Positions 17,642 through 64,000 of a stretch of DNA of 64,000 nt are shown in pieces. Below the pieces are notes generated by a model. It worked only from the letters and a program-made list of their open reading frames with translations, did not search any database and was not told the DNA's origin. Each line of letters opens with the position of its first letter. The stretch's first letter is position 1. A program made the position numbers and the translations under genes. This stretch comes from Ziziphus jujuba (taxonomy: Eukaryota > Streptophyta > Magnoliopsida > Rosales > Rhamnaceae): NCBI RefSeq assembly GCF_031755915.1, contig NC_083384.1, positions 19,474,001-19,538,000 on the forward strand, given 5' to 3'.

Positions 17642-20600
17642 TGATTACCTTTGAGATCCTTCCTAGACATCCAAAAAGGTCTCGCCTAGGAAGCTCTACT
17701 AGACACTTTATCAAAAATCAAAGAAAACCTTTCTGTAAATGGGATGTAACCCAAAAGTTCAAATAAAATATTATGATCACTTCAATATAATTGCCATAAA
17801 ATCATCAACATAGACATTAAGGGTTCCAAACCCAAGATTCAAAAGAAGGAAGGATAAAATAATTGTCATATATATTACCTCAATTCATCAAACTAGCCTA
17901 AAAGAAGTATGGGATTTCAAAATTAAATAAAATGACATGAATAGCAAATCGCACAAAAGAATGTGGAAAAAGAAAAGTACATTAGTAACATACATACAAC
18001 GAAGATGAAAATGCAAGAATGATGAAATATGAAGATGATGATGAAGAGTGCTAGATTTCATATGCACCAACTATCAGCTGAGACCTAAGAGAGTAATTTA
18101 AAAATAAAAATAAAACTATGACACAAGCTCAATAAGTGAATAAAAATAAAGTTTGGAAAATAATTACATTTACTAAAAACATTTCCCTCAAAACGTTTTG
18201 TTCACTCATTATAAAGTCATCTGTTTTGGAAAATGAATTTTACCAAAGCCCATGAATTTTCCTAAACCATAAAAATCCCATATCTCATGTGAAAACATAA
18301 AAGAATAAAGCAAATACAACAATTCATACAATATAAATAAACAACTTATTTTCTTAGTAGTTAACTCATAAGCAAAAATACAAAATCCAATAATCATATT
18401 CCAAATTATCAACCACCCATGTACCATATCCATTATCAAATCCTTTCATATGACCACACCTAATATCCTAGTGCATCATAGAGCCATATGGGTGAAACTA
18501 TATTATAGTCTTTAGCATTCTAAGGCACTATAGAGCTAGGGCATCACATTTATCCTCAGTTAAACACATGATCAATGGAGGTTGTTAGTTTAGAGTGCTT
18601 TGTAATATTCATCGAATCCAATAATCATGTTAAGGTGATGGTACATATAAAATCCATAAATTCATGATCCCTAAAGTATATCAGTCATACAAAAGTAATA
18701 TTTTCTATAAAAAGCAATATTTTCCATAAATTCCATCATACTTAAAAACCATAAAAAGAAAAATAATAATATATGCTCCAATATATATAATCAAATATGG
18801 AAAACATATTTCGACCAATGCATTTTTGCAATTATTTTATAAAATGATAAATCATATGAAGTATTAATCGCATAATATAAATCATGTAAATTCATACTTC
18901 CAAAAATGCTATTAATAATATAAATCATAATCATATCCCCAAAACATTTTCAAAAATAAAATCCGCTAACAGATAGTAGCTCAAGCCTAATTTGTTGATG
19001 GATCGCCTTCAGTCTCAGTCCAGGTGTCTTAAATTATAGCAAAATATTTCTTAGGCTCCAAAATCAAATAAAAGACATTGGTGTGTACAATGTTCCAAAA
19101 TAAATTTTACAACTCTAAAATTACGAAAATTAGATACTTTGGAGTCCATTTATACTGCAAGCCTTTAATATCCGATATATAAAATTAGGGTTTCTACTCA
19201 AAAGACAATTTTATGAAATTGAACCATCTATTGAGTCTAAATAACATCTAAAAACACAAATCCAATTCAACTTGGTGCTGCAAAAACACAATCCAAATTT
19301 AACTAGTGTTAAACTTATTGACATAAAAATGGAAAAATAATCAAATGTCATCCAATATTCACAAATTATCTATCAATAGCAAGCCCATAAAATAGAGATA
19401 AGATTGATACACTCACCTTGGTCTAAAAGTGTTGTTAATGACCAAAAAATCCACTCAAAGTTTTAGTTAAACTTGATATTGATAGATCACTCAAATGGTG
19501 AGGAATCTTGACAAATGAAGGCGAAAAATGTTTTAAGGAGATTTAATAGGGGTGATGCGAATCCGTCCGAACCCGCACAACCGACAACCCACTAAGGTAC
19601 TGACCCGATACGGATGAAGACCGGGCTAATCACTAGGGCTCAAGCTAAGACATTTAGGGACAATCTAGCTGCCTTTATCCAGAGGGTAATTTATTCTCAA
19701 GAGGGCTTGTCCATATATGAAGATCCAAGACCTGTTTTGGGCATACAAGTGATGGAAGTCGATATGGACCCGGATAGCGGTTTTGGTGCATTTATGGATT
19801 CCAGGCAATGGGAAATGGGGTCAAATCTTCTTGAATTCACTTGATATCACTGATAATTCATGGGAACTGGTCAAGGTTAAAGTTTTTCTGGTCATTTAAT
19901 AGGTGTGCACTTGTCCATATTTGCTAGCTTTATTGTATTTTGCTGAGTTAGCTTTTTCTCTTTCCTCCAAGCAAGGGAAATGTGTGAGACTCCATAATAA
20001 TCATATTTGGCATCCTAAAAAGCATATAAAAGCTGATTTGGAGCTCAAATTGGTTAAAGATTTGTCAAAGTCAACTTAGTCAAAAAGCTAGTATTCTAGT
20101 TTCCTAATTTGATTTCTAGTTTTGTTTTAGGAAATTACCTTTACTTTTGGTATTTATTTATTTATTTTATGGACAAATAAGTTTAGGAAAGTTATCATTT
20201 TATTATTTTTATTGTAAATTAATTAATTCCTAATTCAAAATAAGGGAAGTAATTAATCCAAATTCGATTAGGAAAGGGTGTAAAATTAGGAATTTCCTAA
20301 TTGGATTCTATGTTGGCCAAAATTTTCTAATCCTTTTAGGGTCTTTTTTTGTTCATTCAAAGCCTATTCAAAGCCTATTCAAAGGCTTATTTTCAATGAG
20401 AAATCAAGCTTGAATTTTACACAGAAAATTATTAGTGACATTAAATTCTCTTTGTTCTTTTGAACACCTAAAACACCATTAGTGAATGAGTATTTTAGTT
20501 TGAATTATCAATAGTCATTCCATCACTTATTGTGGCGTCTTTATTATATACCAAGGTTTCTAATCACAGGTTGGTTAGGGGTCAAGGTGACCATTAGAAC

Positions 20601-21319
20601 TTGAATATAATTATATCCAGGCTAATATAATATGGGTTTCGGCACAGTTCATCCTAGGTTCGTATGAAGGGGAGTAAAGGTTATGGGTCCACCAGAAATG
20701 GCTAGAAATGGCCAAATTTTGGCGACTCGACCGAACACTTTTAATTGGTTTCAAATGTCGATGTCAATGCATCACTAGCCTAATTGGCCATGGGAATTTA
20801 CGGGTAGGTCAAAAATTAAGTGGGCAATTAAATAGTCAAGCGCGTGAATCTTTGCTCTGCTAAAGCATATATGAAAACTGGTGAAACCCAGCTAGAAGTT
20901 GAAGTAGGTTGCGGGTCAACCTAGTATCTTATGGATTTGGTTGGGTTTCGTGGGTTGAGGGGTTTTTAGGGCAATTTAGGAATTTTTTTGAATTACTTTA
21001 GCTAGGGTGCATTTTCCCATATATATATATATAGGCCTTTAGTTCTAGTAAAAGACAAAAAATTAGATTGGTTTTGACAAAGATAAAAATTCTGATGTTT
21101 AAAATTTCTTAGAACCATAACTTTGTAACTATAATTCTGAATTAGGCATGCCACCAGTTTATGAATTCATATCAATGAGCTCCACATAATGGTGCCAAAT
21201 TCAAAGCCAAAAACTTGACCATAGAAAAAGTTAACCCTAAAATTCAAACATGGTCTAATTTGTTAAACATGGTCAAACCACTTAAAAATTTAAATTCTAA
21301 ATTACTTATCGACGTGGAT
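17642..21319 (-). repeat. 5' LTR of the chromodomain Gypsy element (LTR-A copy 3)
   Basis: Runs from TGATTACC at 17,642 to about 21,319, where the shared sequence AAATTTAAATTCTAAATTACTT ends (also seen at 11.49 kb). Net length without the nested solo LTR is about 2.55 kb. It corresponds block by block to the left LTR. The outer end is approximate because a LINE relic follows without a clear target duplication. Confidence 0.7.
19553..20667 (+). mobile_element. Solo LTR-B, plus orientation
   Basis: 1,115-base LTR starting TGATGCG and ending CGTATGA (family end CGTATCA), flanked by perfect AGGGG target duplications at 19,548-19,552 and 20,668-20,672. It lies inside the right LTR-A, so it is younger than that element. 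It carries a 76-codon open segment starting MKTGLITRAQAKTF (19,614), homologous to the C-terminal tail of the family's polyprotein. Confidence 0.93.
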
Positions 21320-28548: not shown

Positions 28549-29662
28549 TGATACTAATCTGGGTCGACTTGCTTCTAAACTAGTATTATATTAACCCGAA
28601 TCGAAAATTAAGTTCAAATTTTAATGGTCACCTTAACCCCTAATCAACTTGGGATTAAAAACCTTAGTATATGATGAAGACACCACAATAGGTGATGGAT
28701 ATCCTATTGATAAGTCAAACTAAAACACATGATTTCTATAAAGTTTTTTAGGTATTCAAAGGGAATAAAGAGAACTCTTTCTCACAAATAATTTTTTGAA
28801 TAATATCTAAGCTGCTTTCTCATTGAAAAATAAGTCTTTAAATAGGCCAAAAGTACAAAACAAAAACCCTAGAATATTAGGGTAAAATTTGGCCAACATT
28901 GGTGAACAAAAGGAAATTGCCAAATTTCACACCCTTTCCTAATTAAATTTGTATTAATTAATTCCCTAATTTTGAAATAAGAATTAATTAATTTACAATC
29001 AAAATAATAAAATTCTAACTTTCCTAAAGTAATTTTTCCAGCAAATAAATAAATAAAAATCAAAATAAAGACTATTTCCTGAAACAAAAGTCAAATGTTC
29101 AAATTAGGAAACTAGTTTACTAATTTGCCAACTAAGTTGTCTTTCTTGATCCCATATGTTGCCTCTTGATTGGAATAAGTCAAATAGGATTAATATTGAT
29201 TCTCATATGTTGCCTCTTGATTGGAATAAGTCAAACTTTCTTGATCAACAAAAGAAGTCAAAGTGAGCGCCAAAATAAGCATTTTTGGCCAACATGAAGT
29301 CTTGTGCGCCAACATGTTAATTAGCAGCTTGCCTTATGTCTTGACATGATTTCATGGTCCTTTGGAGTGTTCAATCACATTCATAAGTCAACAAATTCAT
29401 TCCTTGCTATCCGAAGTTCATAGAAGTACAAAACCAACTTGCCAGGTCCATTTCAACCTCTTTAGCTTGGATGCACAATACAGACTTTGAATCTTTGTGT
29501 ATTATCATGCCTTTTTGTGATTTAATAATACATTGTATGAAACTAACCAGGTTGTCTTTAAACCTCTTAGCTTGTGCCCTAGTGATTAGTCCCATCTTCA
29601 GTTGCACAAGATCAGCGGCCCAGCGAGTTGTAGGTTGTACGGATACAGATGGATTCTCATCA
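28549..29662 (-). mobile_element. Solo LTR-B, minus orientation
   Basis: 1,114 bases, TGATACT...CTCATCA in plus view, with perfect CTTTG target duplications at 28,544-28,548 and 29,663-29,667. It contains the minus-strand MGLITRAQAKRFKDNL-like coding segment (29,407-29,607) typical of the family. It sits just after the second direct-repeat copy at 28.4-28.5 kb. Confidence 0.93.
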
Positions 29663-30945: not shown

Positions 30946-31558
30946 TTAATACCAAAAAGAATTCCTTGGTTCTTCAAATTGATAATCATATCTTGATATT
31001 TCACGTGTATAACAATAGACATTCCAACTCATCATATTAGAGAAATTTTCCATGTAATTGTAGATGTGCCAAGTATATCTTTCTCTATCAATCCCAACCA
31101 ATTGTCCAAGTGGAGGATAGTGTGGATTTATCCAATGAGGAGTGTAGCATTCATTTTGAGACATGGGATGATTGAAGATATCAACATCGTAATCTCTGTG
31201 AGGATTATGTGAGCTCATTTGACCAATTGGATACACAATTGGAATCTTAGAATTTCCAGATTGAGAATTAACTTGTGTATTTAAACTCATTGCATCCAAA
31301 GAGTTAGAAAGATAATCTTCATCATGTTGATTCATCATCGAATTGCCATAATGCCTTCTTGAACCAGTGCCTGCTGTTCGAGTTCCATGATCAAAATCCT
31401 GTGTTGCATGTGTATATTGATCTTCACCAGTAAATGGGCTTAATGGTTGTTGGCTTGGTTCTCGATAGTATGTTCCACTCCCAGCTCCACCTATATTATA
31501 TCCTCCTCCTCCATTGCCACCACCACCACCACTGCCACCGTCATCGTCATCGTCATCG

Positions 31559-31589
<31 letters not shown>

Positions 31590-34349
31590 TATCAAGATCA
31601 ACAACATCATCATCATCTTCATCCTCATATTCATTTCGTTGAGAATAACTACTACCAAATGTTTCTACACGAGGACTAAATCGTCTAGTTGAAGGCCTTG
31701 TCACTACTTCAAACGAATAATTTCCTCCACTATCACTGCTCATAACTTCTTCAGCAATAACATTCTCAACATTTATCCCTAATTGTGAAGCATGCATTGC
31801 GACTCGAGGATCTGGATTGCCTTCATCATCATCTAAGTGTGAATTCTTAACCCATTGGATAATAGGATTATCTTCAACTTCACCAGGGTCAGCTCCAATT
31901 TCAAGAAAATCCAAATAATCAGAATCTAATTGCGGTTGATTTGTTAATTCCATATCACATATCTGCAATTTCATATTATAGTAGTAAAAAACCAATTTCT
32001 GAAGTTGTTCATATGCGAGTCTATTTTGTTGTTTTGTGTGTATTAAAACGAAGGTGCTCCAATTACACTCGCATGCGGATGATGATACAGTTTGTGACAA
32101 AATACGCATTGCCAATTTTCTGAGTGTTGGGGTGCTATAACCATACATTGTCCACCATTCAGCTGTATATTTCAACATTATAAATTAAAATATATTAAAT
32201 TTTAAAAAAAATTTAATTATTAATAAAATTTTTGATATTAAGCACATTTTTTTATAACAAGTAATTGAAATGCACATACCAGGTATCATTTCTGCCTGGG
32301 CGGCAATTGCTGCACGATCACCAAACCCTTTTCATGCATCTCTAAATCATATTATCTATATGTAAAAATGAAAAAAATTATAAAAAATGTTATTAGTATG
32401 TTAGTTAAAAAATAATAATAAACAAAATCTTACTTCATTTCCAAATTGAGATATACGATCTGAATTTGGATATAATGCTGCAAAGACATCATGAACAGCT
32501 TGTACAAGATCTGAATCAGTGCCAATTCCTTCTTTATACTGGAACCGTGGATTCAGAAAGTATGCTACAAAATAATAATAAAAATTAAATCTAATATATA
32601 AATTATAAGACAAAATATTAATTAATAATAAGTAATTGACATAAAATTACCAGCCATATGGAGAGGATGAGAAAGTGTATTGTCCCATCGAGCATTTATG
32701 ATGCCCATCACCCACTGAATTCCTCTTTGGTTATTGATTGCATATCTTATTTTTTGAAAACAATCATACAATATTGGCATCGTAGGTATGAACTCAGCAT
32801 CAACAATTCGCAAAATATTATATAATGGCCCATTCAAATTAACAACGTGAGTAACAGAATCCCTAAAATAATTATCAAGGACAAGTTTCTCCACTTCTTT
32901 ACCTGCTTTTGTTTGACTCAATTGATGCTCAGCCCATGCATCGCTTGTAAAGACTTGTTTTAGAGAAGCTTTCTTTTTAAGGAGACTATTTAAAGCAATA
33001 TAGTTTGTTGCAAACCTTGTTGCTCCTAGTCGAACGATATCTCCTTTGCATATATCTTGCATTAAAGAAAATAACCAATTATGATTATAAATATAATTGG
33101 TTATCATTCTTGCACGCTGAATGATCCTTGTAATACTTTCATGCTTTCCAATATCCTCAAATATAAGATCAATACAATGCGCAGCACATGGTGTCCAATA
33201 CAAGTTGTACTGTGTCATCAATTTCTTACCAGCCTTTACGAATGCAGAACCGTTATCCGTGACTACCTGCACAACATTGTTCTTGCCCACTTCATTAATA
33301 ACATTCTCCAAAAGTTTGTATATATACTTATAGTTTTTTATTTTATCTGAGGCATCAATTAACTTAAGAAACACTGATGACCCTTTGCAATAGACCATAA
33401 AATTCAATATTGACAGCTTAGTTGATTCTGTCCATCCATCGCACATAATTGTACAACCATATGTCTTCCAGCTTTCTTTAAACTTTTCAATATGCTGTTG
33501 CATCTCTTTATATTCTATGTCTAGATATTTTTCCTTAATTTCATATGGAGATGGAATTTGAACTCCCATACCTGATTGTTGAGCACCAACGATCATGTTT
33601 TTGAAATGGTGCGATTTTGCCTTTGCAGGTGAGACATTATCATAAATAAAGAACTTTGCTACTAGTCTTCCCAATGTGTTTTTCAAACCACCTTTTGTCA
33701 ACACATCTTTTATATTTTTTTGTTTTGCACCGGATGACTTATACAACGAAGGTGCAAGTGCAACTGGAGAAAATTGTTGAGATTGTTGTCTACGAATGGG
33801 CTCCCTCACACTTGTTGCACGACGAAATTGAGCACATGGTTGACTACCACCCTCTCGAGAAGATCCTGATCCTTGACCTCTAGGGTTAACAAAGTTCCTT
33901 CCTTGTTCTTCTTCCCATCTATCTTGTTTAGATGCACGGACTGCAGCTTTATATGAGTCTCTTTCATCAAGATGCATATCTGCTGGATATATACATATAT
34001 CATCATTATCATCATCATCATCGTCACCATCGTCATAATTACTCCGAGATGGAGCTAAGTTACCCCGTAATTCATTACGAATGTCTTCCTCCATTGTCTT
34101 TTTCTTCAATTTTGCATGTTCTTTCTTCCTCAAATAATGGTAAATCTCTTTCTTCACTTCTGGAGGTACATTGGGGCACTTTTTGACATTACTTTTTGGA
34201 TCAGAATGTGCTAAATGATACTTTAATCTTGTCATTCCATCACTTTGCATTTTATGGTTACAATATTTACAAATTATACCATACTTGTTACCTTCAATTG
34301 GAATACAATGTGACCAAGCTGGATCTACTTTTCCGCTACTACTTTCCAT
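30946..34349 (-). pseudogene. hAT transposase gene (BED zinc finger, DUF659, hAT dimerisation), four exons, two nonsense codons
   Basis: Exons 32,651-34,349, 32,434-32,564, 32,280-32,355 and 30,946-32,162 have GT-AG introns of 86, 78 and 117 bases and consistent phase, giving 1,040 codons before the stop. Residues 11-60 hold a BED-type finger (C27, C30, H45, C58). About 200-370 is DUF659 (IMCDGWTES, WTPCAAHCIDLIFEDIG). Exon 2 carries YFLNPRFQY and the start of exon 4 carries AEWW and SSACECNWSTF..HTKQQNRL, the hAT-C dimerisation domain. The tail has an Asp run then Gly-rich sequence. Exon 3 has in-frame TGA at 32,347-32,349 and 32,332-32,334, although the reading around them (FRDA, KGFGDRAAIAAQ) is family-like. 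The protein would therefore stop before dimerisation unless exon choice differs. A recently inactivated copy is the simplest reading. Confidence 0.85.
31540..31590 (-). repeat. TCA/TCG trinucleotide repeat encoding poly-Asp
   Basis: On the coding (minus) strand this is a GAT/GAC run giving about 17 consecutive Asp residues, followed by a Gly run from GGT/GGC codons. Opposite-strand readings give poly-His or poly-Ile and are not real. Confidence 0.85.
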
Positions 34350-34374
34350 TTTTCCTTTTAATAATCATACATAA

Positions 34375-36105
34375 TTATTAAGTTAATAATAATATTAAGA
34401 ACAATAATAGGAATAAGAAAAATAATAATAATAATAACAACTAAAAAAATAATAAAAGTAATAATAATTTCAATAATAATAAGAATAACAATAATTACAA
34501 TATTAATAACAATAATAACAACATTAATACTAATAACGATAATAAATATAATAAGAATAATAATTAGAAGAAAAATAACAATAATAATAATATTAATAAT
34601 AATAATAATAAACAACATTAATAACAACATTAATAATAATATAAATAATGACAACATGATAATAATAATAATAACAATAGTAAGAAGAATAATAATAACC
34701 ATAATAACAATAATAACAACATTAATACTAATAACGATAATAAATATAATAAGAATAATAATTAGAAGAAAAATAACAATAATAATAATATTAATAATAA
34801 TAATAAACAACAATAATAACAACATTAATAATAATATTAATAATAGAAATAATAATAACTACATTAATAAAAATAATAACATCAACAATAATAACAACAT
34901 TAATAATAATCATGATAATAATATAAATAATAACAACTTGATAATAATAATAATAATAACAATAAGAAGAAGAAGAATAATAACCATAATAACAATATTA
35001 ATAACAATAATAACAACATTAATACTAATAACGATAATAAATATAATAAGAATAATAATTAGAAGAAAAATAATAATGATAATAATAATAAACAGCAATA
35101 ATAACAACATTAATACTAATATTAATAATAGAAATAATAATAACTACATTAATAAAAATAATAACATCAACAATAATAACAACATTAATAATAATCATGA
35201 TAATAATAACAATATTAATAATAATATAAATAATGATAACATGATAATAATAATAATAATAACAATAGTAAGAAGAATAATAATAACCATAATAACAATA
35301 TAAATAACAATAATAACACATTAATACTAATAACGATAATAAATATAATAAGAATAATAATTAGAAGAAAAATAACAATAATAATAATATTAATAATAAT
35401 AATAAACAACAATAATAACAACGTTAATAATAATATTAATAATAGAAATAATAATAACCACATTAATAAAAATAATAACATCAACAATAATAACAATATT
35501 AATAATAATCATGATAATAATAACAATATTAATAATAATATAAATAATAACAACTTGATAATAATAATAATAATAACAATAAGAAGAAGAAGAATAATAA
35601 CCATAATAACAATATTAATAACAATAATAACAACATTAATACTAATAACGATAATAAATATAATAAAAATAATAATTAGAAGAAAAATAACAATAATAAT
35701 AATATTAATAACAATAATAATAATATTAATAATAATAATAAACAAAAATAATAACAACATTAATAATAATATTAATAATAGAAATAATAATAACTACATT
35801 AATAAAAATAATAACATCAACAATAATAACAATATTCATAACAATCATGATAATAATAACAATAATAACAATATTAAAAATAATATAAACAATAACAATA
35901 TTAATAATAATATAAATAATGACAACATGATAATAATAATAATAACAATATTAATACTAATAACGATAATAAATATAATAACAATAATAAATTAGAAAAA
36001 AAATAACAATAATAATAATATTAATTATAATAATAATAACAATATTAATAATAATATAAATAATAAGAATGTTAATAAGAATAATAACAATAATAATTAG
36101 AAATT
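34375..36105. repeat. (AAT)-like low-complexity array with ~300-base higher-order repeat
   Basis: About 1.7 kb built of AAT/AAC/ATT words, almost without G on the plus strand. It is not a simple microsatellite: the word ACATTAATACTAATAACGAT recurs at 34,521, 34,719, 35,016, 35,318 and 35,633, with a variant near 35,949 (spacings 198, 297, 302, 315, 316). Long stop-free readings (Ile/Asn-rich) are composition artefacts. It lies upstream of the transposase start codon, inside the hAT element, and could sit in a 5' UTR intron on the minus strand: donor-like AAA|GTAAGC sites lie in the duplication at 36,123-36,218 and AG lies just before 34,355. Confidence 0.9.
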
Positions 36106-42650: not shown

Positions 42651-42924
42651 TGATAAGTAAGAAGACAACTCAAACATACACCTATGCACTGCACCTACTG
42701 CATCAACTCCTTCTGTCTGCTGATACTGCTCAATGTTCGTTTTCCACACCAAGATATTTCTTGTATGGCAAGACTTCAAGATAGTAGTTGACCTTCTTAA
42801 ATGTCTTTTTGAATTTTTTCAAATACAGGAAATAGTAATTAGCTTCCTTCCTTGCTCACAACCACACACATCTGTAAAAATTTTGTCCATTTGTAAAGTT
42901 TCCATGCATCGACTACTTTCTCCA
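42651..42924 (+). repeat. 5' LTR of the Copia element
   Basis: 274 bases, TGATAAG...TCTCCA. Shared with the 3' LTR: ACACCTATGCACTG, CTGATACTGCTCAATGTTC, AAGATATTTCTT and CATGCATC. The 3' LTR is longer through small internal duplications. Confidence 0.88.
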
Positions 42925-42959: not shown

Positions 42960-44209
42960 ATGGATTCCCAAAATGAATTTTCTTCACAACCAAACACTAG
43001 CACTAGAGCCTTTGTTCCACACGAACCCATCTTAACTATTCAATTCTTTCACCAGTGCACTAGTTTGGCCTTTATCAAACTACATGCCTTGAATTTTCTT
43101 CTTCGGCATTCAAAAATCATCCCATTAGTGAGAAGCCTTGGAATATACCACCATCTCACTAAGGGTGAACCACCATGTGAATTTTTACATGAAGAAAAGG
43201 AGGTTCTTGTCATAAATCCAAACCATAGTGCATGGATCAGTAACTATAGGATGTTGACAACCCTGTTGCTTGGCATTATGTCTAACGAAATTCTGAGTTT
43301 GAATGTAGATATTGATAGTGCATATCTACTATGGAAATCCATAGAAGACTTGCTATTGCCAACAACAAAGGAACAAGAACATGTTCTTAAGGATAGGCTT
43401 GCTTCACTTAAGAAAGGAAGTCTTCCAATTGATGAGTACTTGAGAAAGTTCAAGCAAGTGTGTGATAATTTAGCTGCTATTAATGCTCTAGTTTTAGACA
43501 TAAATAAAGTATTTTCTTTTGCTTGAAGACTTGGTCCTAGCTGTAAAGATTTTAGAGTTGTTATGCTTGCAAAGCCACCCTACCCATCCTTCAATTAGTT
43601 CATTTTGGCATTACAAAGCCAAACCACATGCTAGATATTGAAGATGAAGAACATGACAGCAACCAAGCTTATTTTGGATAACATGGACATGGAAGAAGTT
43701 GAGGAACTCGTGGTGGTGGCTGATTCAATTTTCAAGGTAAAGGATTCACACTTGCAGGGAACTTTAGTGAAACCAAGAAACCAGCCAGAGATCAAAATTC
43801 ATGCTGAAGGGAATCCTGTACAAAATATTGAAGGTAAACTTATTTGTCAAATATGTGATCAATTTAACCATAGTGCCATAGATTGCTGGCACAAGTTTGA
43901 TCATTCATACACCAAGGAAAACATTCCAGAGGAACTAGTAGCACTCAAAATTGCAAATAACCTCGATCTAAATTTCTATGTAGATTCAGATGCCATTGCA
44001 CATATGAAAAATAACAATGGTAAAATAACTAAATATTTTCCTTATAAAGGTAGTGATAGAATTTATGTTGGTAACAGTCTTACAATTTCTTTCATTGGTA
44101 ATGTCAAACTAAAACTAAAAATGGATGTTTAGAGCTCAAAAAAGTTATTGGAGTAACAAAATTAAAGAAAAATCTTCTATCAGTTAGTCAACTAACAATT
44201 GATAATGCT
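42960..44209 (+). pseudogene. Copia gag and protease (5' part of polyprotein)
   Basis: A 188-codon open piece (42,960-43,526) starts MDSQNEFSSQPNTS and has the gag fold region (SAWISNYRMLTTLLLGIMS, LWKSIEDLLLPTTKEQ, SLPIDEYLRKFKQVCDNLA) of the UBN2/Copia type. After a stop and shift, 43,638-44,132 has a zinc knuckle C-x2-C-x4-H-x4-C (CQICDQFNHSAIDC) and protease FYVDSDAIAHM, where the usual DSG triad reads DSD. The frame continues towards SVSQLTIDNA at 44,209, where the Gypsy element interrupts it. It resumes after the duplicated ATGCT at 51,711. Confidence 0.85.
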
Positions 44210-45342
44210 TGATACGAACCTAGGTCGACACGCGCCTAAACCCGTATTATATTATCCTGGATCATGATTAAGTTCAAGTTCTAATGGGGTGACCTTAACC
44301 CTTAACCAACCTGTGATTAGAAACCTTGGTATAATATAGACGCCACAATAGGTGATGGATATCCTATTGATAAGTCAAACTAAGACACTCACTCACTAAT
44401 GGTATTTTAGGTGTTCAAAGAGAATAAAGAGAAATTCAATCTCACAAAATAAATTCTGAATATTATTAATGGTGTGGTCTTCCTAAAAAACAAGCCCTTA
44501 TATAGGCTAAGAGAAAACAAAATAAAACCTACAAACTAAAGCAAAGACCGGCCATGCCTTGTTGTTTCTTAATGTGGCCAAATTTTATCTCTCTTTCCTA
44601 ATCTAATTTTGATTAATTAATTTCTTTATTTTGAATTAGAAATTAATTAATTTACAATGAAAATAATAAAATTATAACTTTCCTAGACTTATTTTCCCAG
44701 CAAATAAATAAATAAAAACCAAAAGTAAAGGTAATTTCCTAAAACAAAAAGTAGAAATCAAATTAGGAAACTAAAATACTATCTTTTTGATTAAGTTGAC
44801 TTTTACCAATCTTTGACCAATTTAAGCTCCAAATCAGCTTCCATATACTTTGTAGGATGCCAAATAGGATTATCATGGAGCCCCACATGTTGCTCTTGCC
44901 TAGAAGAAAGAGAAATAGCAAACTTAGTAAAATACAGTAAAGCCAGCAAGTAATATAGCAAAACTGGCCAAATTTCCATTCCATGTGCACAACCCCTTTT
45001 TGGTTGCCTTTGAAGCTGCCTTTAATTGATTCCATGATATTTTAGACATATGTATTGCATCCATGAAGTATTGGAACCATTTCATGCTGCCCGGACTCCA
45101 TAAATGCACAAAAACCGCTACCTGAGTCCATATCGGCTTCCACCACTTGTATGCTCAAAACATGTATTGGATCTTTAGGTATGGACAAGCCTCCTTGAGA
45201 ATGAATTACCCCCTGGATAAAAGCTTCAAGGTTTTCCTTAAACCTCTTAGGTTGAGCCCTAGTGATCGGCCCAGTCTTCATCCATATCGGGTCAGCACCT
45301 CAGCAAGTTGTCGGTTGTGCAGGCACAGGTGGATTCACATCA
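44210..45342 (-). repeat. Left LTR of the chimera (LTR-B subfamily), minus strand
   Basis: 1,133 bases with TGATACG...CACATCA ends in plus view, co-linear with the three solo LTR-B copies. A polypurine tract (AAGAGGAAGGGAA on the minus strand, 45,343-45,355) precedes it. The minus-strand segment MKTGPITRAQPKRFKENLEA (45,281 downward) is the family's polyprotein tail encoded within the LTR. Confidence 0.92.
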
Positions 45343-45353
45343 TTCCCTTCCTC

Positions 45354-45764
45354 TTAAAAAGGATTTGCCCTCAAATCAAAGTCATCACCTGCAAGAAAAG
45401 GAGATAAATCAGAAACATTAAATGTGGGCCTAACATTGTACTCACCTATTAAATTGTAGGCATTCTCGTTAATCCACTCCAAAACTTGAGAAGGTCCATC
45501 CACATGCGGCATAAGCTTTGACTTTCTTTGTTCGGGAAACCTTTCCTTTCTTAAATGCAACCAAATACAATCCCATGGGTCAAACACCATCACAAAAAAT
45601 ACTACAAATACAAGTTCATTTCGGCAAAAATCACACTTTTTATTATTAGCAAATAATCTCTCCCACATTTTCAAATTTTCACTAAGTAAAGCTTTCAACA
45701 ATGCAGATAAAGTTTTATACAACAAAAATATCTTTAAATAAGCATCTTTATGAATTATAACCAA
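45354..45764 (-). pseudogene. Gypsy pol remnant: RT end fused to integrase C-terminus
   Basis: Minus-strand open stretch of 136 codons. ERLFANNKKCDFCRNELVF (end of the RT palm/thumb region) runs directly into WLHLRKERFPEQRKSKLMP and YNVRPTFNVSDLSPF, the conserved C-terminus after integrase. RNase H and the integrase core are deleted. It ends DDFDLRANPF just before the polypurine tract. Confidence 0.8.
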
Positions 45765-45808
45765 AAATTATTTCTTATTCAAAATTGCTTTATTAGCATC
45801 ACAAAAAC

Positions 45809-47381
45809 TCAAATAAATTTTTTTATTTTTCCTCTCTTTTCTTTCTTGTTGTTTCTTTCTCTCGGTTTGGCTCCCACTCTCAGTTTTTTCAACCTCCCTC
45901 TCACTCTCGGGTTTCTCTTGGTTTTTCCATTCAATTTGAGTCGTAGAATACTTATCTTGAACAACAAACTCAGACTTACCCTCTTGGATGGATGGTAAAG
46001 CTGTAGGTGCCATACTAGCTTTCTCCTTGAGCTTTCAGCCTCCCTCCTTTGTTGCATTTGTAATTGGTCTCTAAAAACTTCCTTCGGGGTCAATGGCTCC
46101 AGCTTGACCTTCTTTCCTTTAAACTTAAAAGCAATGGAGTTCTCTCTAGTATAATGTATGGCATCTTTATCAAATTTCCATGGCCTTCCCAATAATAGAT
46201 GACCAGCATGCATAGGCACAATATCACACAATACAGCATCCACATATTTATCTATGCTAAATTTTACTTGGGCTTGTTTATTTACTTTTATCTCTCCACT
46301 ATCATTAAGCCATTGAAATCTATATGGTTCTAGATGTTTAATAGTTGTTAAGCCTAATTTATCAACTACCATGCCACTAATTATATTTGCACAACTTCCA
46401 CTATCTATAATCATATTACATATGTTACCTTGAATTTCGTATCGAGTGTGGAAGATGTTTTCTCTTTGAATTTGATCCTCATCTTTGTATACAGTAAGGA
46501 CCCTCCTTGCAACTATGCTCAAGTCAGCCCTTGAATGGTGGAGTGTTTCGGATTCCTCATGCTCATCCCCTCCAAGTTCTTCATCATCCAATTCGGCCTT
46601 TCCCCCACTTTCCTCACTTTTGGATTCTAGTTCACTATTACCTTTCAGCACCATGATCCTCCTATTTGGGCATTAATTGGCAAGGTGTCCTCATCCCTAA
46701 CACTTAAAATACACAATTTCATGAGTTCTAGAAGGTTTAGCATCATATTTACATTCATTTTTGTGTGCTTGGACAGATTCAGTTCACCATCTCTCCTTCG
46801 GGTGTTTTTCTCATTGGTCCACTGTTATAGTGCATAATGACTAAATTCCATTGCTGCCAGTTTCACCTTCTTAGTCTCCGAATAGTTGTGGCAATCAAAG
46901 ATCATCTCCATACATTCCTCCCATTCCAAGTAAGCCTCTGGGTTACTTTTTCCCATGAAAGGTGGTATGTTTACCTTGATGTTTCCAAGATCATCATCTT
47001 CCTCCTCTCTTCTATGCCTCCCACAGCCTAGCCTCTCTTGGATAGCAAGTGTTTCATCCATTCCTTCCTCGAAATCATCTTCAAAATTTTCCTCTTTGAA
47101 CTCCTCTCTAGGTCGTCCATGGCCTCCTCGATCTCAACCTTGACCTGAACCTCCATGGAACTCTTGCCTCAAATTTGTTCCTCCATGAGATATTTCTATT
47201 CTGTCCATCCTTTGATTTATGCAGTCAAATTGAGCAGTCATCCCCTGCAATTGTTCCATGACAGCCTTCATGTCGGTTTGCTCACAATTCCCCACAGCGC
47301 GAGAATCACCATGGAATCCTACAGATTCTTTTTCATTGATTCTTATGGTAGATCTGCTCTCCTCAACCTTGAATCTACCAT
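45809..47381 (-). pseudogene. Gypsy gag and protease
   Basis: Minus strand. gag starts at ATG 47,381-47,379 (MVDSRLRRADLP, then a stop; the copy at 63,720 starts MLDPRIRRGD). The Retrotrans_gag region reads KVNIPPFMGKSNPEAYLEWE and KKVKLAAMEFSHYAL (46.8-47.0 kb). A degenerate zinc knuckle ending CPNRRIMVLKG lies at about 46.62-46.7 kb. Protease follows in a 281-codon open stretch (45,809-46,654): CNMIIDSGSCANIIS is the aspartic protease motif and LLLGRPWKFDKDAIHY the flap-side motif. The last 80 residues are Lys/Arg-rich, probably out of frame after a deletion. Confidence 0.85.
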
Positions 47382-48293
47382 GTTAGTATAAGTAATGCAA
47401 AATAAAATATATTCTCACCAAAAAGCACTTCTTCACGTGTTTCACTCAATCAAGGTCTCAACACTCGTGTTTTCACACTAGTTTCGAATTTTATCCTCTT
47501 TTAAGCTCACACACTCATTCCTTTTACCACTCTAGTAATTCTATTTGGTACTGTGCAAACTAATTTCAAATTAAACCAAACTAGCAAGTAATAATCCAAA
47601 TAAACCTATCAAACGGTTATGAAAGAAAAGCTAAGAAAAAGGCAATGATGATAGGTTCAGTTTTCAACAAGAAATTTGGCACAAACATCAGAAACTAGAA
47701 TGTTAAGAACAAATTGGAATCAGATTTGCAAAGTGGAATTAGAGAATATTGAACAAACCTTATTTTCGATATTGATTTTGGCTTGTTTTTGGTGCTCCTC
47801 AAATCAATCAAAAAAACTTTCACTACCTGTTTTCTCTTGAAATCTCAATAATTCAATGCCATAAACCACAAGAATAAGAAAAAATTTAAGCATGAATCTT
47901 TTTTTTTTTTTTTTTTTTTTTGCGTTCTAGCAACAATAGCAATCTTTATCAATCTATAGTAATACCAATCGCACCAAACTTCAATGAAAACACACCAAGC
48001 CTAAGGTTTAGAATGCAAAGAAGAACAAAGAATTTTTTTTTTTTTAAATATATGTAAGGTATGATCTGATGAATGAAGAAGAACCAAAAAAGAAAAGATG
48101 CAAAGAAGAACGCAATGACTAAATGGATAAGACAACCAAAGAAATCAAAGATGCAATTTCTAACCTAATGCTAAAATCGTGGAAAGCCAAGAACAAAGAA
48201 AAACAATGAAAGCAAACATAGATAGATCAAACCTGTAATTAAAAACTAGATAGATCAAACCTGTAATTAGAAACTATCTGTGATACTAAATTT
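47382..48293 (-). other. Gypsy leader and primer-binding site; junction of the two halves
   Basis: Minus-strand untranslated leader matching the one at 62.6-63.7 kb: GTTGAGACCTTG..TGAGTGAAACACGTGA just before gag, and CAGGTTTGATCTATCT near the primer site. At 48,281-48,293 the complement of a decayed primer site (TTTAGTATCACAG on the minus strand; consensus TTTGGTATCAGAG) is followed at once by plus-strand pol. A 28-base tandem duplication (48,221 and 48,249, GATAGATCAAACCTGTAATT) lies beside the junction and is absent at 62.6 kb. Poly(T) at 47,899-47,921. Confidence 0.7.
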
Positions 48294-50728
48294 AGCATCA
48301 AATTGATTTTGTTCCAGGATCAACAATTCCAAACCGGCTGGCTTATATGAGTAATCCATAGGAGACAAAGGAACTTCAAAGGCAGGTAAGTGAATTGCTT
48401 GAAAAGGGATATATTAGAGAAAGCATAAGTCCATGTGTTGTACATGTGTTATTAGTCCCTAAGAAAGATGGAACATGGAGAATGTATGTAGATTGTAAGG
48501 CTATTAATAATATAACTGTCAAATATCATCACCCTATTCCTAGGTTAGATGATATGCTTGATGAATTGTATGGTGCATGCATGTTTTCAAAAATTGATCT
48601 TAAGAGTGGTTATCATCAAATTCGTATGAAAGAAGGTGATGAATGGAAAACAACATTTAAAACAAAGCATGGTTTGTATAAGTGATTGGTTATGCCATTT
48701 GGGTTAACTAATGCCCTTAGTACTTTTATGAGACTTATGAATCATGTTTTGCGTGCTTGCATTGGAAAGTTTGTGGATGTGTACTTTGATGATATCCTTG
48801 TATATAGTAGGAGTTTAGAAGAGCATGTAGGGCATCTTAGGCTAATATTAGATGTTTTTAGGAAAGAAAGACTTTATGCCAATCTTAAAAAGTGTGACTT
48901 TTGTAAATCTGAACTTACGTTTCTAGGCTTTGTGATTAGTGCTGCAGGTATCAAAGTTGATTAAGAGAAAGTGAAAGCCATTCAAGAGTGGTCCATGACA
49001 ACTAGCATTACCCAAGTTAGAAGTTTCCATAGTTTGGCTAGTTTCTATTGAAGGTTTGTTAAAGATTTTAGTACTATTGTTGCACCTTTGATAGAGGTTA
49101 TTAAAAAGAATGTAGGTTTTCAATGGGGAGAAGCTCAAGAAAGGTCTTTTAAGTTATTAAAAGAAAAACTAACAAATGCCCCTTTATTGGTGTTGCCTAA
49201 CTTTTCTGAAACCTTTGAGATTGAATGTGATGCATCAGGAATAGGTATATATGCTATTTTGATGCAAGAGGGAAAACTAATTGCTTATTTCAGTGAAAAG
49301 CTAAGTGGGGCAGCCTTAAACTATCCAACTTATGACAAAAAGCTATATGCATTGGCTAGAGCATTGGAGACATGGCAGCACTACTTATGACCTAAAGAGT
49401 TTGTGATTCACATAGATCATGAGTCTTTAAAGCATATAAAGGGACAAGGAAAGCTCAATAGGCACCATGGCAAGTGGATGGAATTTCTTGAGACGTTTCC
49501 CTATGTTATTCGCTACAAGCAAGATAAGAAAAATATTGTAGCTGATGCATTATCACACAGGTATGTACTACTTTCTACTTTGGATGCTAAATTACTTGGT
49601 TTTGATCAAATTAAAAAATTTATATGATTTAGATCATGACTTTGGTGAAATTTACAAACTTCATGAAAAACATGCTGCGGGAAAGTTCTATAGATTTGAG
49701 GGATTCTTGTTTAGGGAAAATAAACTTTGTGTGCCAAGTTGTTCTTTACATGATTTACTTGTTAGAAAATCTCATTTGGGGGGGGGGGGGGGGGGGGGGG
49801 GGAGGGGGGGGAATTAATGGGACACTTTGGAATAGCTAAAACCTTAGCTGTTCTACAAGAACATTTTTATTAGCCACATATGAAAAGGTAGAAAGAATTT
49901 GTGATAGATGCATTAAATGTAAACAATCTAAATCATGGTTGTAACCACATCGGTTGTACATGCCACTTCCTATACCTAACCAGCCTTAGGTAGACATTTC
50001 TATGAACTTTGTTTTAGGGTTACCTAGAACAAAGAAAGGAAGGGATTTAATTTTTGTGGTTGTGGATAGGTTCTCTAAAATGGCACATTTTATTGCATGT
50101 CATAAAACCGATAATGCATCTTATATTGCTGATTTGTTCTTTAAAGAAATTATTAGATTGCATGGAATGCCTATAACAATAGTATCTGATAGTGATGCAA
50201 AATTCTTGAGTTGCTTTTGAAAAACATTGTGGGCTAAGTTGGATACTAAATTGTTGTTTTCTACTACTTGTTATCCATAAACTTATGGACAAACAGAGGT
50301 AGTAAATAGAACTTTGTCTACTTTGTTGCATGCTTTGATAAATAAGAATATCAAAACTTGAGAAGAATGTTTACCTCATGTTGAATTTGCTTACAATAGA
50401 TCTGCACATTTAGCCACTAAATTTTCACCTTTTGAAATTGTATATGGTTTTAATCCTTTAACTGCATTGGCGTCAAGAAGTTCTTTTTTGAGCTTGGAGA
50501 TTAGGCTTGGTTGCATTTAAGAAACGAAAGATTTCCGGTACAACGAAAGTCTAAACTCATGCCACGTGGAGATGATTCATTTCAAATATTGGAGAGACTT
50601 AATGACAATGGTTACAAATTAGATCTTCCAGGTGAGTATAATGTTAGTGCTACCTTTAATGTCGCTAATTTATCTTCTTTTTGTGCAGGTGATGATTTGA
50701 GGACAAATCCTTTTCAAAAGGAGAAAAA
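48294..50728 (+). pseudogene. Gypsy RT, RNase H and integrase
   Basis: Plus strand with many stops. [48 protein letters not shown] and catalytic YFDDILVYS (about 48.78-48.81 kb). RNase [57 protein letters not shown]. Integrase: [12 protein letters not shown] (first catalytic Asp replaced by Asn), SDSDAKF and QTEVVNRTL (about 50.0-50.33 kb). The C-terminus [35 protein letters not shown] runs to 50,741. A G-run interrupts the integrase N-terminal region at 49,778-49,811. Part of the linker before LRNERF is deleted. Stops fall at expected Trp/Gln/Arg positions (for example TGA at 48,684). Confidence 0.9.
49778..49811 (+). repeat. Poly-G homopolymer (25 G, one A, 8 G)
   Basis: Lies in the integrase zinc-binding region where related elements have a short Gly-rich segment, so a few GGN codons have expanded. 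Could form G-quadruplexes, and could equally be a sequencing or assembly artefact. Confidence 0.9.
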
Positions 50729-51705
50729 TGATGAGGACTAGCCGAGGAGTACCTCAAGATGGAGTGAAGAGCCGCTTCAAATCTCTACGAGACTGACAAC
50801 TAAAGCTAGAGCAAAGCGGTTTAAAAAAGCACTAAATGGTTTAATCCAGCAAGTGTTCACATCTCAAGGAAGCAGGTTCATTATTGAAGATGAACCAAAA
50901 TTGGTCCATATGATTGGAACGGTGAATGCCAACATGAAAGAAAGCTTAACACAAGGAATCCTACAACATGGTGATGTGGCAAGTTTTGATGACATGGATG
51001 TTGATGTGGCATCCTATGGTGACATGGCACTTTTGCCATGTGGAGGGTGATATGTGCTTACATGGCTTCCAACTAAGTTTGGCCGAATTTTATAATTAAG
51101 AAAACATTAATTTTTATTTATGTCTTGATTGGATTTTGGCATGTTGCCTATTTACTTTCCTAGTTTAGGTTTCATTAGGTTTTTAAATTACTTTCCTAAT
51201 TTTATTAGAGTTGAATTGGTCAAAGTATTAAAAGCCATTCAAATTAGGAAACTAGGAGCCAAATTAGGTTTCCTAAATCTAATCACATTAGATTTTCTAA
51301 ACCTAACCACATTAGGTTTTCTAGACCTAACCAAATTAGGTTTCCTAAACCTAATTTTCGTCCATCTTTATTTTTAGTAAATTTAGGAAAGCTTTGTAAT
51401 TTATTTTTCCTATTTAAAGGCATAAAAGTCATGAATAAAAATTAGATTAGAATTTTGATTCAAAGTGAGAGTTATTATCTTGGTTCTTTAAGAACTATAT
51501 TGAACTTTTCAAGCTTTGCTCATGGAGTTCAAATTTAACTTATCAATAGGTTATTCCACACCTTATTGTGGCATCTTCACTATACCAAGGTTCTTACATC
51601 AAATATAGGTAAAGGGTCGAGGTCTTCCATTGATAATTTGTAATTAGATGGTCCAAATCAATCTTTGTTACGGGTTTAGAGACAAGTCACTCTAGGTTCG
51701 TATCA
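50729..51705 (+). repeat. Right LTR of the chimera (diverged LTR-D subfamily)
   Basis: 977 bases, TGATGAGGAC...CGTATCA, after a purine tract (AAAAGGAGAAAAA). Its 3' part shares ACTTATCAATAGG..ATTCCACACCTTATTGTGGC, TATACCAAGGTTCTTA and the end TAGGTTCGTATCA with LTR-B; the middle is unlike it. It encodes the polyprotein tail KARAKRFKKALNGLIQQVFT (about 50.8 kb). Confidence 0.88.
51263..51358 (+). repeat. Four 24-base tandem palindromic units in LTR-D
   Basis: Units start at 51,263, 51,287, 51,311 and 51,335 (exact 24-base period), each close to ATTAGGTTTCCTAAACCTAA, which is itself an inverted repeat (TTAGGTTT / AAACCTAA). The array can fold as several hairpins. Confidence 0.88.
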
Positions 51706-51710
51706 ATGCT

Positions 51711-55010: not shown

Positions 55011-55337
55011 TAATAAGGAAGAAGACAAGTCAAGCATACACCTATGCACTGAACCTAATGCATCAACACCTGTATCAATGCCTTCCCTCTGCTGATACTG
55101 CTCAATGTTCACTTTCCAACGTTCACTTTCTAAACCAAGATATTTCTTATATGGCAAGACTTTCAAGATAGTAGGACCTTCTTAAAAGTCTTTTTGAATT
55201 TTTTCAAATATAGGAAATAGTAATTAGCTTCCTTTCTTATCGAAGCTTCCTTCCTTACTCACAACCACCTGTGTAAATTTTGTCTGGTTGTAAAGTTTCC
55301 ATGCATCAAAGAAATACACAGTTGATTACTTTCTTCA
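55011..55337 (+). repeat. 3' LTR of the Copia element
   Basis: 327 bases, TAATAAG...TCTTCA (TG start mutated to TA). Longer than the 5' LTR because of small duplications (AACGTTCACTTTC and TTCCTT..GAAGCTTCC segments). Followed by TATAT. Confidence 0.88.
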
Positions 55338-59985: not shown

Positions 59986-61116
59986 ATATATATATATACA
60001 CATATATATATTATGAGCATTTCTTCAAATTCTTTGTGGGTATAGCATAAATTTCAAGGTTGTTTGGAAGAGCTACCAAACTAAAAGCACCCATATCATG
60101 AAGGATGTTGCTATGGTTCTTTTAGTGACTCTTTTTCTTGTAACATCTCTTTCAAATAAAAAAAAATGACAGAACATGTAGAAAAATTAATGGCTAGGAC
60201 CATGCCTTTTTATCATATATGTATTGCATCCAACAATTTTGGACCATATAGTATAAGGATGTACATCATTCGGAGTACAAAGCACACCGTATCATGGTGG
60301 CCCTGACCCACAGTTGTCTTTTAGCAATTCCTCTCCACCTGAGCTATCCTCCATGCTCTCTCTTTCACTTTCTCAAAGAAATACATAAACAACCCAGAAA
60401 AATATTGTAAAACATGAGATAATATGAATATTGGGTACCAATAACACATGAAAAGTTGCTTGACACTTAAAGGAATATATCAAATAGATAAAAGTAAGAA
60501 GACCAATTAGTGTTTCTTAGAAATCCAGTGAATAACTAAAAGTAAAATTGAATAACAACTCATCACTCAATAAAATTGATCAAAAACATATAAAAAATGA
60601 AGATTTAACCTGGAAGCACAATCTCATAATACCATACTCTAAATTCCTTAATGATTCTTCATTTTTCTTGTGGCCAAATTTCTCCCTAGAACAACTTCAA
60701 GAAATCAAGAACAAGACAACCACAGCTGTTAAAATGTGCATGTCCTAGGTTTTATGTAAATCAAGAAAAAGGAAGTAAAAAGAAGAAAGAGAAAAGAAAC
60801 TAAGTTTGCAACTGGCAAGCCTAACAAGACAATTGTACATGCTAACCCCTTAGTAACGACAAATCATATTGCAAGATAAAAGAAAAACACCTTAGCTTCA
60901 TCCTAAGGCAGTTGATCTTATGGATGACATTCTCAAACCTCTGCTCAAGAGGCCAAGAGTTGAGAGTTTCACATGCCAAATCTATTTACTTAGAATGTGG
61001 TAATTGTCACACTTATAACACTTATTAGAACTTATAAATGCGAAATATAAAAATCCTCCAAAATATCACTAATAAATAATATTAAAAAACAACTCCTTAA
61101 AAAAAAAGGCTCAAAT

Positions 61117-62588
61117 TAATGAGAATCCACCTGCACCCATACAGTCGACTACCTGCTGGGGTGCTGATCCATTACAGATGAAGACCAGACCAATCACTAG
61201 AGCACAAGCCTAGAGATTTAAAGAAAACCTGGCTGGATTCATAGAGTGACTTATCAATTCTCAAAAGGGTTTATCTATATCCGAAGATACAAGAGCCAGT
61301 TTATGCATCCAGGTGATTAAAGCTGATACAGACCCAGGTAGCTGTTTTTAGACTCCGGGCATCAAGGAATGGGTTAAACACTTTTTGAAATCAATTGATA
61401 CTAAGAGTTCATGGGAACAAGTCAAGGCAGAAGCAAAAGCAATTAAAGAAGACATTTACGCATAGGAGGAGTTTTTCGCTGAAATTACTGTTTTTGTTGC
61501 TGACTTTATTGTATTTTGCTGATTTGCCATTTTCTCTTTGTGCCAATCAAGGACAACGTGTGGGAATCATCATTAATCCTATTTGAAATCCTTCATGGCA
61601 CATTGGATCAGATTTTGAGCCTTTACAAGCTGAAAATTGGTCAAAGTTATCTTAGTAGTTAAACTAGTCAACTAGTTTCTTAATTTGATTTTGACTTTTT
61701 GTTTTAGGAAACTAGCTTTTATTTTGGTTTTATTTAATTATTTTGCTGGAAAAATTAACTTAAGAAAACTAATATTTTATTATTTCAATTGTAAATTAAT
61801 TAATTCCTAGCTCAAAATAAATGAATTAATTAATCAAAATTAGATTAGAAAAAGAATGGAATTTTCGGCAACATTAGGAATTTGTCAATGTATGGCCCGT
61901 TTTGTCTTAGTTTTTAGGGTTTTATTTTGTTCATTCAAAGCCTGTTTAAAGGCTTATTTTCAATGGGAAATCAGCTACATATTATTCAGAAAATTATTTA
62001 TGAGATAGAATTTTCTTTGTTCTCTTTGAACACATAAAACATTGAATAGAAATCAAGTAAAAACTAGCTTTTATTTTGGTTTTATTTAATTATTTTGCGG
62101 GAAAAATTAACTTATGAAAGTTAATATTTTATTATTTCAATTATAAATTAATTAATTCCCAAATCAAAACAATGGAATTAATTGATCAAAATTAAATTAG
62201 GAAAGGAATGGAATTTTTGGCCACATTAGGAATGTGTCAATGTATGGCCGGTTTTGTCTTAGTTTTTTGGGTTTTATTTTGTTCATTCAAACCATATTTA
62301 AAGGCTTATTTTCAATCAGAAATTAGCTTACATATTATTCAGAAAATTATTTGTGAGATAGAATTCTCTTTGTTCTCTTTCAACACCTAAAATACTATTA
62401 GAGAGTGAGTGTTTTAGTTTGACTTATCAATAGGATATCCATCACCTATTGTGGCATCTTTAATATACCAAGGTTTCTAGTCACAAGTTGATTAGGGGTT
62501 GAGGTGACCATAATAACTTGAACTTAATTTTTCGATTTCGAGCTAATATAATACAGGTTTAGGTGCAAGTCGACCTAGGTTCGTATCA
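61117..62588 (+). mobile_element. 5' LTR of a third LTR-B Gypsy element, with internal 352-base duplication
   Basis: Starts TAATGAGAATCC (family TGATGAGAATCC) and ends CGTATCA. At 1,472 bases it is about 350 longer than the other LTR-B copies because a segment is duplicated in tandem: AACTAGCTTTTATTTTGG occurs at 61,710 and 62,062 and both copies continue through TTAATTAATTCC and the GGCC.GTTTTGTCTTAG block. The KTRPITRAQA-like tail codon segment is present near 61,180. The element continues beyond the window. Confidence 0.88.
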
Positions 62589-63719
62589 TTTGTTATCAAA
62601 GCCAAGATTTTATTCAGGTTTGATCTATCTTATTGGTTTTATTTTGTTTTGTATTAATCTACAATTTTGGCATTAGGTCAAGATTGTTCTTAGTTCAACA
62701 CGTTCTGCAGTATTAAAAAAAAAAAATTTATTCCTAGTCAAATTAGGTTACCTTGTTTTACTGTATTTTTGCTTCCTAGTTTGTTTGATGTTTTTCATCA
62801 TTGTTCTTGTTAATTTGGTTTAGTGTTGATTTTTCTTTGTTGTTTTAATCTTAATTAGTTGCATTCATATATTCAAGAAAAAAAAAAAGAGTTTTGAAAG
62901 CATGTTGCATTAAAACCTAAAAAATTGTGCAATTTGTTATTATTGGAGTGAGGTCTCGGGTTTGGTGGAATTTTGGTTTTGGTATTGCAATTTTTATTAT
63001 TGATTCTTGCTATAGGAGTTTTTTTTGAGTTCTGTAGTGAATTAAGGAAAAAAAAAGCCGAATAAAAAAAAAAGGGTTGTTTTATTGAAATTTAGGAGTT
63101 CGAATTTTGTTTGAGATGGAAATTTTGAATTGTGAAAATTGCAGTTGCTGGAAATTTAATTTTGCTGCTGGATATTTGAATTTTTAGTGCTAAAATAATT
63201 TCAATTAAAATTGGTAAAGGATTTGATACGAAACATAAATTACAAGAACAATAATCAATTAAATTATAAGAACAATAATCGACAACTATTCCCTATTTTG
63301 TTCGAATTGATTCTTGTTCATTGTTTGAATCTCTTTTCTATATTTTATCCTTGAATTATTGGTTTATTAATATTCTGGTCAGCTTTTTATTCATTTTGAA
63401 AATTTTTCTTGTTGATTTACCTTGTTTTTGCAAGAAAAGCCGAGAACTAGGTTTTATTAATTCACTTAGTATTGCTTGCTTTTTGCTACTGTTTTGTTGA
63501 TAAGTTTAATTAGAACATACTTGTGATCTAGTTGCTATTTTGTATGTGTTTTTATTAGAACTTTTAGAGAATTCTTTGAGGGGAAAAAAGCAAGAGAGTG
63601 TGAGCTTAAAAGAGGGTAAAAGTCAAAAATAGTCTGTAAACATGAATGTTGAGACCTTGTTTGAGTGAAACACGTGAGGGAGTGAATTTGGTGAGGATTT
63701 TTGTATTATTTTTGCTAAC
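62589..63719 (+). other. Primer-binding site and leader of the LTR-B Gypsy element
   Basis: TTTGTTATCAAAGCC directly after the LTR matches the initiator tRNA-Met primer site (TGGTATCAGAGCC) with two changes. The following 1.1 kb is T-rich untranslated leader, co-linear with the reverse complement of 47.4-48.28 kb. Confidence 0.75.
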
Positions 63720-64000
63720 ATGCTAGATCCAAGGATAAGGAGAGGAGATGGATCATTACAAATTAATGAAGAGGAATCCATAGGATTCAAAGGTGATTCC
63801 CGAGCTATGGGAAGTGAAGGTGAGCACACGGATATGATGGCAGTCTTGGATCAATTACAGTGGATGAATGCTCATTTTGATCACCTAGATCAAAATATGG
63901 AAAGGTTAGAAACATCACAAGGTAGGCCAAATAGAAGGTTTGATGTACGTGGTGGTTGAGGTCGAGGTTGAGAAGGCCTAGGGCGACTTAGAGAGGAATT
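63720..64000 (+). pseudogene. Gypsy gag N-terminus (partial, runs off the window)
   Basis: Starts MLDPRIRRGDGSLQINEEES and has a coiled-coil-like segment (LDQLQWMNAHFDHLDQNMER) typical of the start of this family's gag, followed by an Arg/Gly-rich stretch (RPNRRFDVRGG). An in-frame TGA at 63,957-63,959 and further stops indicate decay. Confidence 0.75.

Follow-up and report, generated by a model that had tools for sequence, protein, structure and literature searches.

We analysed a stretch of 64,000 nucleotides of the jujube (Ziziphus jujuba) genome (contig NC_083384.1 of assembly GCF_031755915.1, positions 19,474,001 to 19,538,000 of the forward strand), hereafter called the window. At positions 44210-51705 it holds a Ty3/gypsy unit of 7.5 kb with inverted long terminal repeats (LTRs) and a U5 tip at either edge. 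The outer tips are exact inverted copies of each other, TGATACGAACCTAGG at 44210 and CCTAGGTTCGTATCA at 51705, and form an inverted terminal repeat of about 15 bp. The left LTR (44210-45342, minus sense, U5 tip at 44210 and U3 start at 45342) has the ends TGATG and TATCA and follows the purine tract AAGAGGAAGGGAA (45343-45355, minus strand). The right LTR (50729-51705, plus sense) also starts with TGATG, immediately after the purine tract AAAAGGAGAAAAA (50716-50728, plus strand). Toward the outside, each half ends in a purine tract and a complete LTR that occupies the 3′ position. The exact inverted tips agree with an earlier interpretation of the letters alone (the sequence-only reading), in which a minus-strand and a plus-strand half are joined head to head with a U5 terminus at each outer edge. 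No LTR was found at the centre of the unit by self-comparison, by alignment of one half with the other or by comparison with the boundary sequences of relatives. Because the unit lacks an LTR pair, it cannot be dated by one.

Pfam searches of the minus-strand half detected an aspartyl protease (gag-asp_proteas, E 3e-4, below the curated cut-off) and the C-terminal SH3 domain of integrase. The protease region spans 45809-46672 on the minus strand and is followed by the gag region (46673-47540), the leader (47541-48291) and, within the leader, a primer-binding site (PBS; 48277-48288) with a 3-nucleotide (nt) spacer beside it (48289-48291), all on the same strand. On the plus-strand half, reverse transcriptase (RT), RNase H, integrase core (below the curated cut-off) and SH3 were detected in a region (48295-50741) that begins inside pol and contains stop codons. 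A run of 25 G residues lies in the integrase part of this region (49778-49802); it may be a real expansion or an assembly fault.

The unit is flanked on both sides by ATGCT (44205-44209 and 51706-51710). This 5-bp duplication, already described as perfect in the sequence-only reading, is indeed identical at the two edges, and by simple arithmetic its five positions would agree by chance with a probability of 1/1024. When the flanks are joined over one ATGCT, an open Copia stretch runs across the site. We compared the joined flanks with database proteins, and two of four candidates passed. One of them, P0241, aligns across the site, which itself is free of gaps; 42 of the 81 columns are identical, and 3 gap columns occur further along. 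The other, P0242, has one gap column, 3 to 4 residues before the site. It had been claimed that the Copia reading frame closes upon removal of the unit and one ATGCT. This is true of the stretch that spans the site, with an ungapped best match, but the Copia element is otherwise broken, by a frame change slightly upstream of the site and a stop downstream. A direct repeat of 77% identity at 42653-42910 and 55013-55307 may represent the LTRs of the Copia host, which would make the host old.

Two LTR families in one unit

The left LTR (type A) and the right LTR (type B) share 54% identity across 936 columns without gaps, and their local similarity is concentrated in the terminal ~170 bp on the U5 side (71%). 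LTR A is 68-88% identical to eight other A-type LTRs. We searched the 394-Mb assembly, scoring the best 40 candidates in each search. Full-length copies of LTR A reached 88% identity (best 40 of 8,433 candidates), and copies of LTR B reached 89% over the full length and 90% over positions 28-975 (best 40 of 1,645 candidates). A and B are distinct families, each with full-length copies of its own; L021, for instance, is an A-type element of 8 kb with both LTRs, pol and CTTTC duplicated at its flanks. The LTR pairs of five relatives are 86-90% identical. Comparison by eye of the listed places of A and B LTRs (best 40 each) revealed no second inverted A/B pair. The earlier view that the LTRs come from two subfamilies, and that simple inversion of one element is inadequate, was thereby upheld: such an inversion is ruled out, as the two LTRs belong to different families.

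By four characters, the tips of the LTRs, the primer site, the length of the duplication and the end of pol, the parents fit the CRM clade. Both LTRs have TGATG and T/CATCA tips. Relatives carry ATTTGGTATCAGAGC or near variants right after the 5′ LTR, a primer-binding motif of the initiator methionine transfer RNA (tRNA-Met) type, and the window keeps 9 of its 12 positions. The target duplication has 5 bp (ATGCT in the window, CTTTC in L021), and the pol open reading frame (ORF) at 50505-50741 ends 13 bases inside the LTR that starts at 50729.

The sequence-only reading placed a pol end in the minus-strand half. The integrase SH3 end (SH3_Tf2-1) is present there, but as part of a scrambled remnant (45354-45767, minus strand), in which alignment against the B half gave the order integrase (45718-45665), RT (45662-45591) and integrase C-terminal SH3 (from 45584). 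Matches at 80-87% identity, covering the region 45343-46000 largely or completely, were found in 39 other scored places. As the scramble is common to these places, it must be old, and we rejected it as a product of the event that formed the unit. It follows that A belongs to a non-autonomous family, with no intact RT or integrase. No protein with this integrase-RT-integrase order was found among the 120 listed of 158 matches. In two other loci, L037 and L027, RT ends near B position 636-640 and the integrase end follows directly, apparently through a shared internal deletion.

The gag region of the minus-strand half is of type A and lacks ~450 bp that are present in relatives, by an internal deletion near 46,780. 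In sliding identity and alignment, A elements match better than B from gag onward. The leader and PBS (48291 to ~47540), on the other hand, match those of the B-LTR elements L038, L039, L046 and L052, with A elements weaker or unmatched. The change from type A gag to type B leader, a homologous crossover, was located at 47525-47540 by both comparisons and by a genome search: with positions 46900-47900 as the query, all of the 39 other scored copies match the gag side only and stop at 47525-47540 (best 40 of 3,530 candidates, a ranking that may miss rarer or more diverged chimeras). Probes for the A leader, taken from L021 and L028 (86% identical to each other), found it in 17 of 17 informative A elements, namely 11 of 20 fetched slices (9 were uninformative) and 6 of a set of 12 fetched loci, L021, L023, L025, L028, L029 and L030. 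In four of the 17 (L029, L059, L062 and L066) there was also a short, weak match to the window leader, at less than 40 bits versus 151-461 for the A leader. Judged from these comparisons, the minus-strand half is a recombinant, with A sequence from gag to the 3′ LTR and a B leader and PBS, and a pure type A half was dropped. The assignment of the two halves to two subfamilies therefore stands for A from gag to the 3′ LTR and for the right half, of type B, but not for the leader of the minus-strand half. That leader and right half are both of type B is as expected if one B RNA gave both. A tandem duplication of ~28 bp lies in the leader next to the PBS (48205-48275); none was seen by eye in five B leaders.

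The window contains further A-type sequences. Solo A-type LTRs are found at 9761-10886, 19553-20667 and 28549-29662, with 5-bp flanks that match at 4/5, 5/5 and 5/5 positions. The first two lie in opposite orientation in related host repeats, apparently within ~20 bp of the same spot, as judged by eye. Positions 61112-64000 hold part of another A-type element, namely its 5′ LTR, PBS and leader; the LTR contains a direct duplication (61709-62039 and 62061-62392, 91%).

The join and other head-to-head loci

At the boundary between LTR and leader, B elements read GTATCA, then ATT, then TGGTATCAGAGC, with small changes. On the plus strand of the window, the PBS complement and its spacer are followed by RT sequence. 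Of the B relatives fetched, L075 comes closest here (90% identical at the start of the RT region) and reads GGGATTGAGCATC. The motif ATTGA is common to L075 and the LTR/leader boundary, and L045 and L021 also have it; the window shows ATTTA at 48290-48294, where the head-to-head junction was placed. Relatives of both parents thus have a 5-nt overlap in common. In 200,000 random joins between the parental relatives L038 and L075, an overlap of at least 5 nt arose in 0.8%. The join lies at most 3 nt from the boundary between PBS spacer and U5.

The sequence-only reading suggested that the genome be searched for other inverted-LTR units with the same junction. With positions 48150-48450 as the query (best 40 of 1,491 candidates), all of the 39 other scored copies were confined to the RT side, with matches that begin at 48290-48297 and have 91-95% identity (up to 95% over 155 bp); none spanned the join. 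The layout, as opposed to the junction, does recur. Two of 12 fetched loci, L022 (C10, 57-6644) and L027 (C6, 920-7106), consist of A-type 3′ parts placed head to head with U5 outward. The outer edges of L022, GTAGG and ATAAG, are alike at three of five positions, both differences being G/A. They may be a decayed duplication, and no target continuity was seen. The right LTR of L027 runs into another primer site and leader. These loci might be units of the same kind that have decayed, or might have arisen through nesting and deletion.

A solo LTR with the flanks CAAAT and CAAAC lies within L022 (3132-4265). The back-to-back LTRs of L031 and the abutting inverted B LTRs on C5 were considered as inverted units and read as neighbouring or nested insertions. 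At G000:C5:21862304-21868035, a B element apparently lies inside a B LTR, and the pieces of the query share five positions (228-232), like a 5-bp duplication.

Origin of the unit

We consider it probable that the unit results from one integration of an abnormal complementary DNA (cDNA) with two U5 ends, made from co-packaged A and B RNAs. A single particle would have carried the RNAs of two CRM-like gypsy families, the non-autonomous A and B. Minus-strand synthesis from the A 3′ LTR would have copied A as far as the start of gag, where RT would have switched to the B RNA at a point of homology, going on through the B leader to the B primer-binding site. There, RT would have been left with a few template bases at most, and the normal second strand transfer would have been skipped. 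The 3′ end of this cDNA may then have joined, via ATTGA, a second minus-strand cDNA that started from the B 3′ end and ended within RT; a break of the B RNA near the RT start would account for the truncation. Synthesis from the join would have yielded double-stranded DNA in which both ends are U5 tips, and integrase would have put this DNA into the Copia element as one unit with the usual 5-bp duplication. For the account in its full detail, in which reverse transcription halted just before the second transfer and two minus strands of different families were joined at their 3′ ends and integrated via two U5 termini, the chances appear close to even.

In reverse transcription, minus-strand DNA comes to an end at the PBS ahead of plus-strand transfer. 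RT is able to switch between co-packaged RNAs (PMC3187697). According to PMC8742673, pairs of U5 ends are preferred in vitro over U3/U5 and U3/U3 pairs by the integrase of human immunodeficiency virus type 1 (HIV-1), mostly with a 5-bp duplication, which makes a product with two U5 ends a plausible substrate. The position of the join at the PBS boundary and the A/B crossover, neither of them seen in another scored copy, strengthen the case for a single cDNA with two U5 ends. The sequence-only reading had already proposed such a cDNA of two subfamilies, integrated once, and this remains the best fit, the co-packaging of the two RNAs being inferred.

The order of events and the last step are more tentative. 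With the same two RNAs and the same single integration, host end joining might have linked two double-stranded, truncated cDNAs before integration. The 5-nt overlap suits microhomology end joining as well as it suits priming, and a cDNA that had not undergone the second transfer would also have an end at the boundary of PBS spacer and U5. End joining alone, however, leaves the position of one end at that boundary unexplained. We regard this course as possible and somewhat doubtful, and place priming somewhat ahead of it for the last join.

Several points weigh against the single integration of a two-U5 cDNA. L022 and L027 share the head-to-head layout and do not bear the mark of one integration, so that such a layout may also arise in other ways. 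The overlap ATTGA is absent in L037, L047 and L076, one of its five bases in the window (48293) is unlike both parental relatives, and it was derived from relatives at 75-90% identity, not from the closest copies (up to 95%). The copies are old, as their LTR pairs indicate, and later changes could blur detail. B gag and protease are missing, and a broken template is the one cause that we can put forward. The evidence for the empty site is homology at the protein level; the genome searches scored only 40 candidates each; and the anatomy is that of the assembled sequence.

Alternatively, two ordinary insertions, A in the minus and B in the plus orientation, might have occurred at one Copia position, followed by a deletion from the 5′ end of the A-type element to the B RT. 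A-type head-to-head layouts without matching outer duplications do occur, at L022 and L027, and A-type LTR insertions can sit close together, as illustrated by the solo LTRs at 9761-10886 and 19553-20667, which, judged by eye, lie close to one spot in related repeats and have different duplications. The finding of L022 and L027 slightly raised the standing of two insertions and slightly lowered that of the single integration and of the interrupted transfer. Nevertheless, two insertions would have to use the same 5-bp target twice with no loss of Copia sequence, one end of the deletion would have to fall no more than 3 nt from the LTR/PBS boundary, and an A-type element would need a B-type leader, against the A leader in all informative A elements. 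We therefore deem this course improbable. A misjoining of different repeat copies during assembly is conceivable in a repeat-rich region with a long G run inside the unit, and even less probable, as a random misjoin would not yield matching duplications, an ungapped match to the empty site and a join at a functional boundary.

DIRS-like elements encode a tyrosine recombinase and make no target duplication. A DIRS-like element, or a self-propagating inverted-LTR family, would agree with the inverted terminal repeats of ~15 bp and can practically be dismissed, since join and crossover occur in no other scored copy and the unit has a 5-bp duplication of integrase type, pieces of integrase domains and a gypsy RT and RNase H (no search for a recombinase was made).

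Apart from the retrotransposon sequences, the window contains a very AT-rich, low-complexity tract at 34300-36000 (GC content of 0.155 over 34001-36000), and beside it long minus-strand ORFs (30946-34364) whose appearance, judged by eye, suggests a hAT-type transposase.

Comparison with known systems

Hairpin and palindromic cDNAs are known from retroviruses and pararetroviruses. Among the open-licence papers that our searches listed, we recognised none on an inverted-LTR insertion of the present kind, which does not establish priority; the phrase 'inverted LTRs' occurred in one of them, on Dictyostelium (PMC5633606). The nearest published kind is that of the template-switching complexes of LTR retrotransposons described in Triticeae, rice and maize by Sabot and Schulman (2007; PMC1950507). 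Like the jujube unit, these are single insertions from two RNAs with a single 5-bp duplication. They differ in having three direct LTRs, one of them internal, with highly similar outer LTRs, whereas in the jujube unit there are two inverted LTRs of 54% identity, neither of them internal, and the halves meet head to head at the PBS. Thus, the duplication typical of one integration is shared, while the internal third LTR and the similar, direct outer LTRs are not found. We consider the unit a new variant among template-switch insertions.

The parents resemble CRM chromoviruses in LTR tips, tRNA-Met site, 5-bp duplication and pol end, as described by Neumann et al. (2011; PMC3059260). Unlike the jujube unit, ordinary members of the clade carry their LTRs in direct orientation and possess a single 5′ end. 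A relationship akin to that of A and B is found in Cereba and Quinta, an autonomous/non-autonomous centromeric pair of einkorn (PMC11302176). The non-autonomous family has no RT or integrase, and the proposal is that it owes its movement to the related autonomous family, whose PBS and LTR tips match its own; the partners are described there as separate elements, whereas A and B share one insertion in jujube. Concerted integration of paired U5 ends in vitro, as described in PMC8742673 and PMC3790719, involves two U5 ends and a 5-bp duplication, as here, with purified retroviral enzymes and short DNAs instead of a genomic insertion.

If the single integration of a two-U5 cDNA is the correct account, one locus shows both the sharing of a particle by two families and the switching of RT between their RNAs. 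Integrase would then take two U5 ends of different families, and the pairing of U3 with U5 would not be needed for a clean insertion in a plant. Software that expects direct LTRs would probably fragment such a unit. The combination of inverted LTRs, one duplication and a join at the PBS is a searchable signature, with which the frequency of such insertions can be measured.

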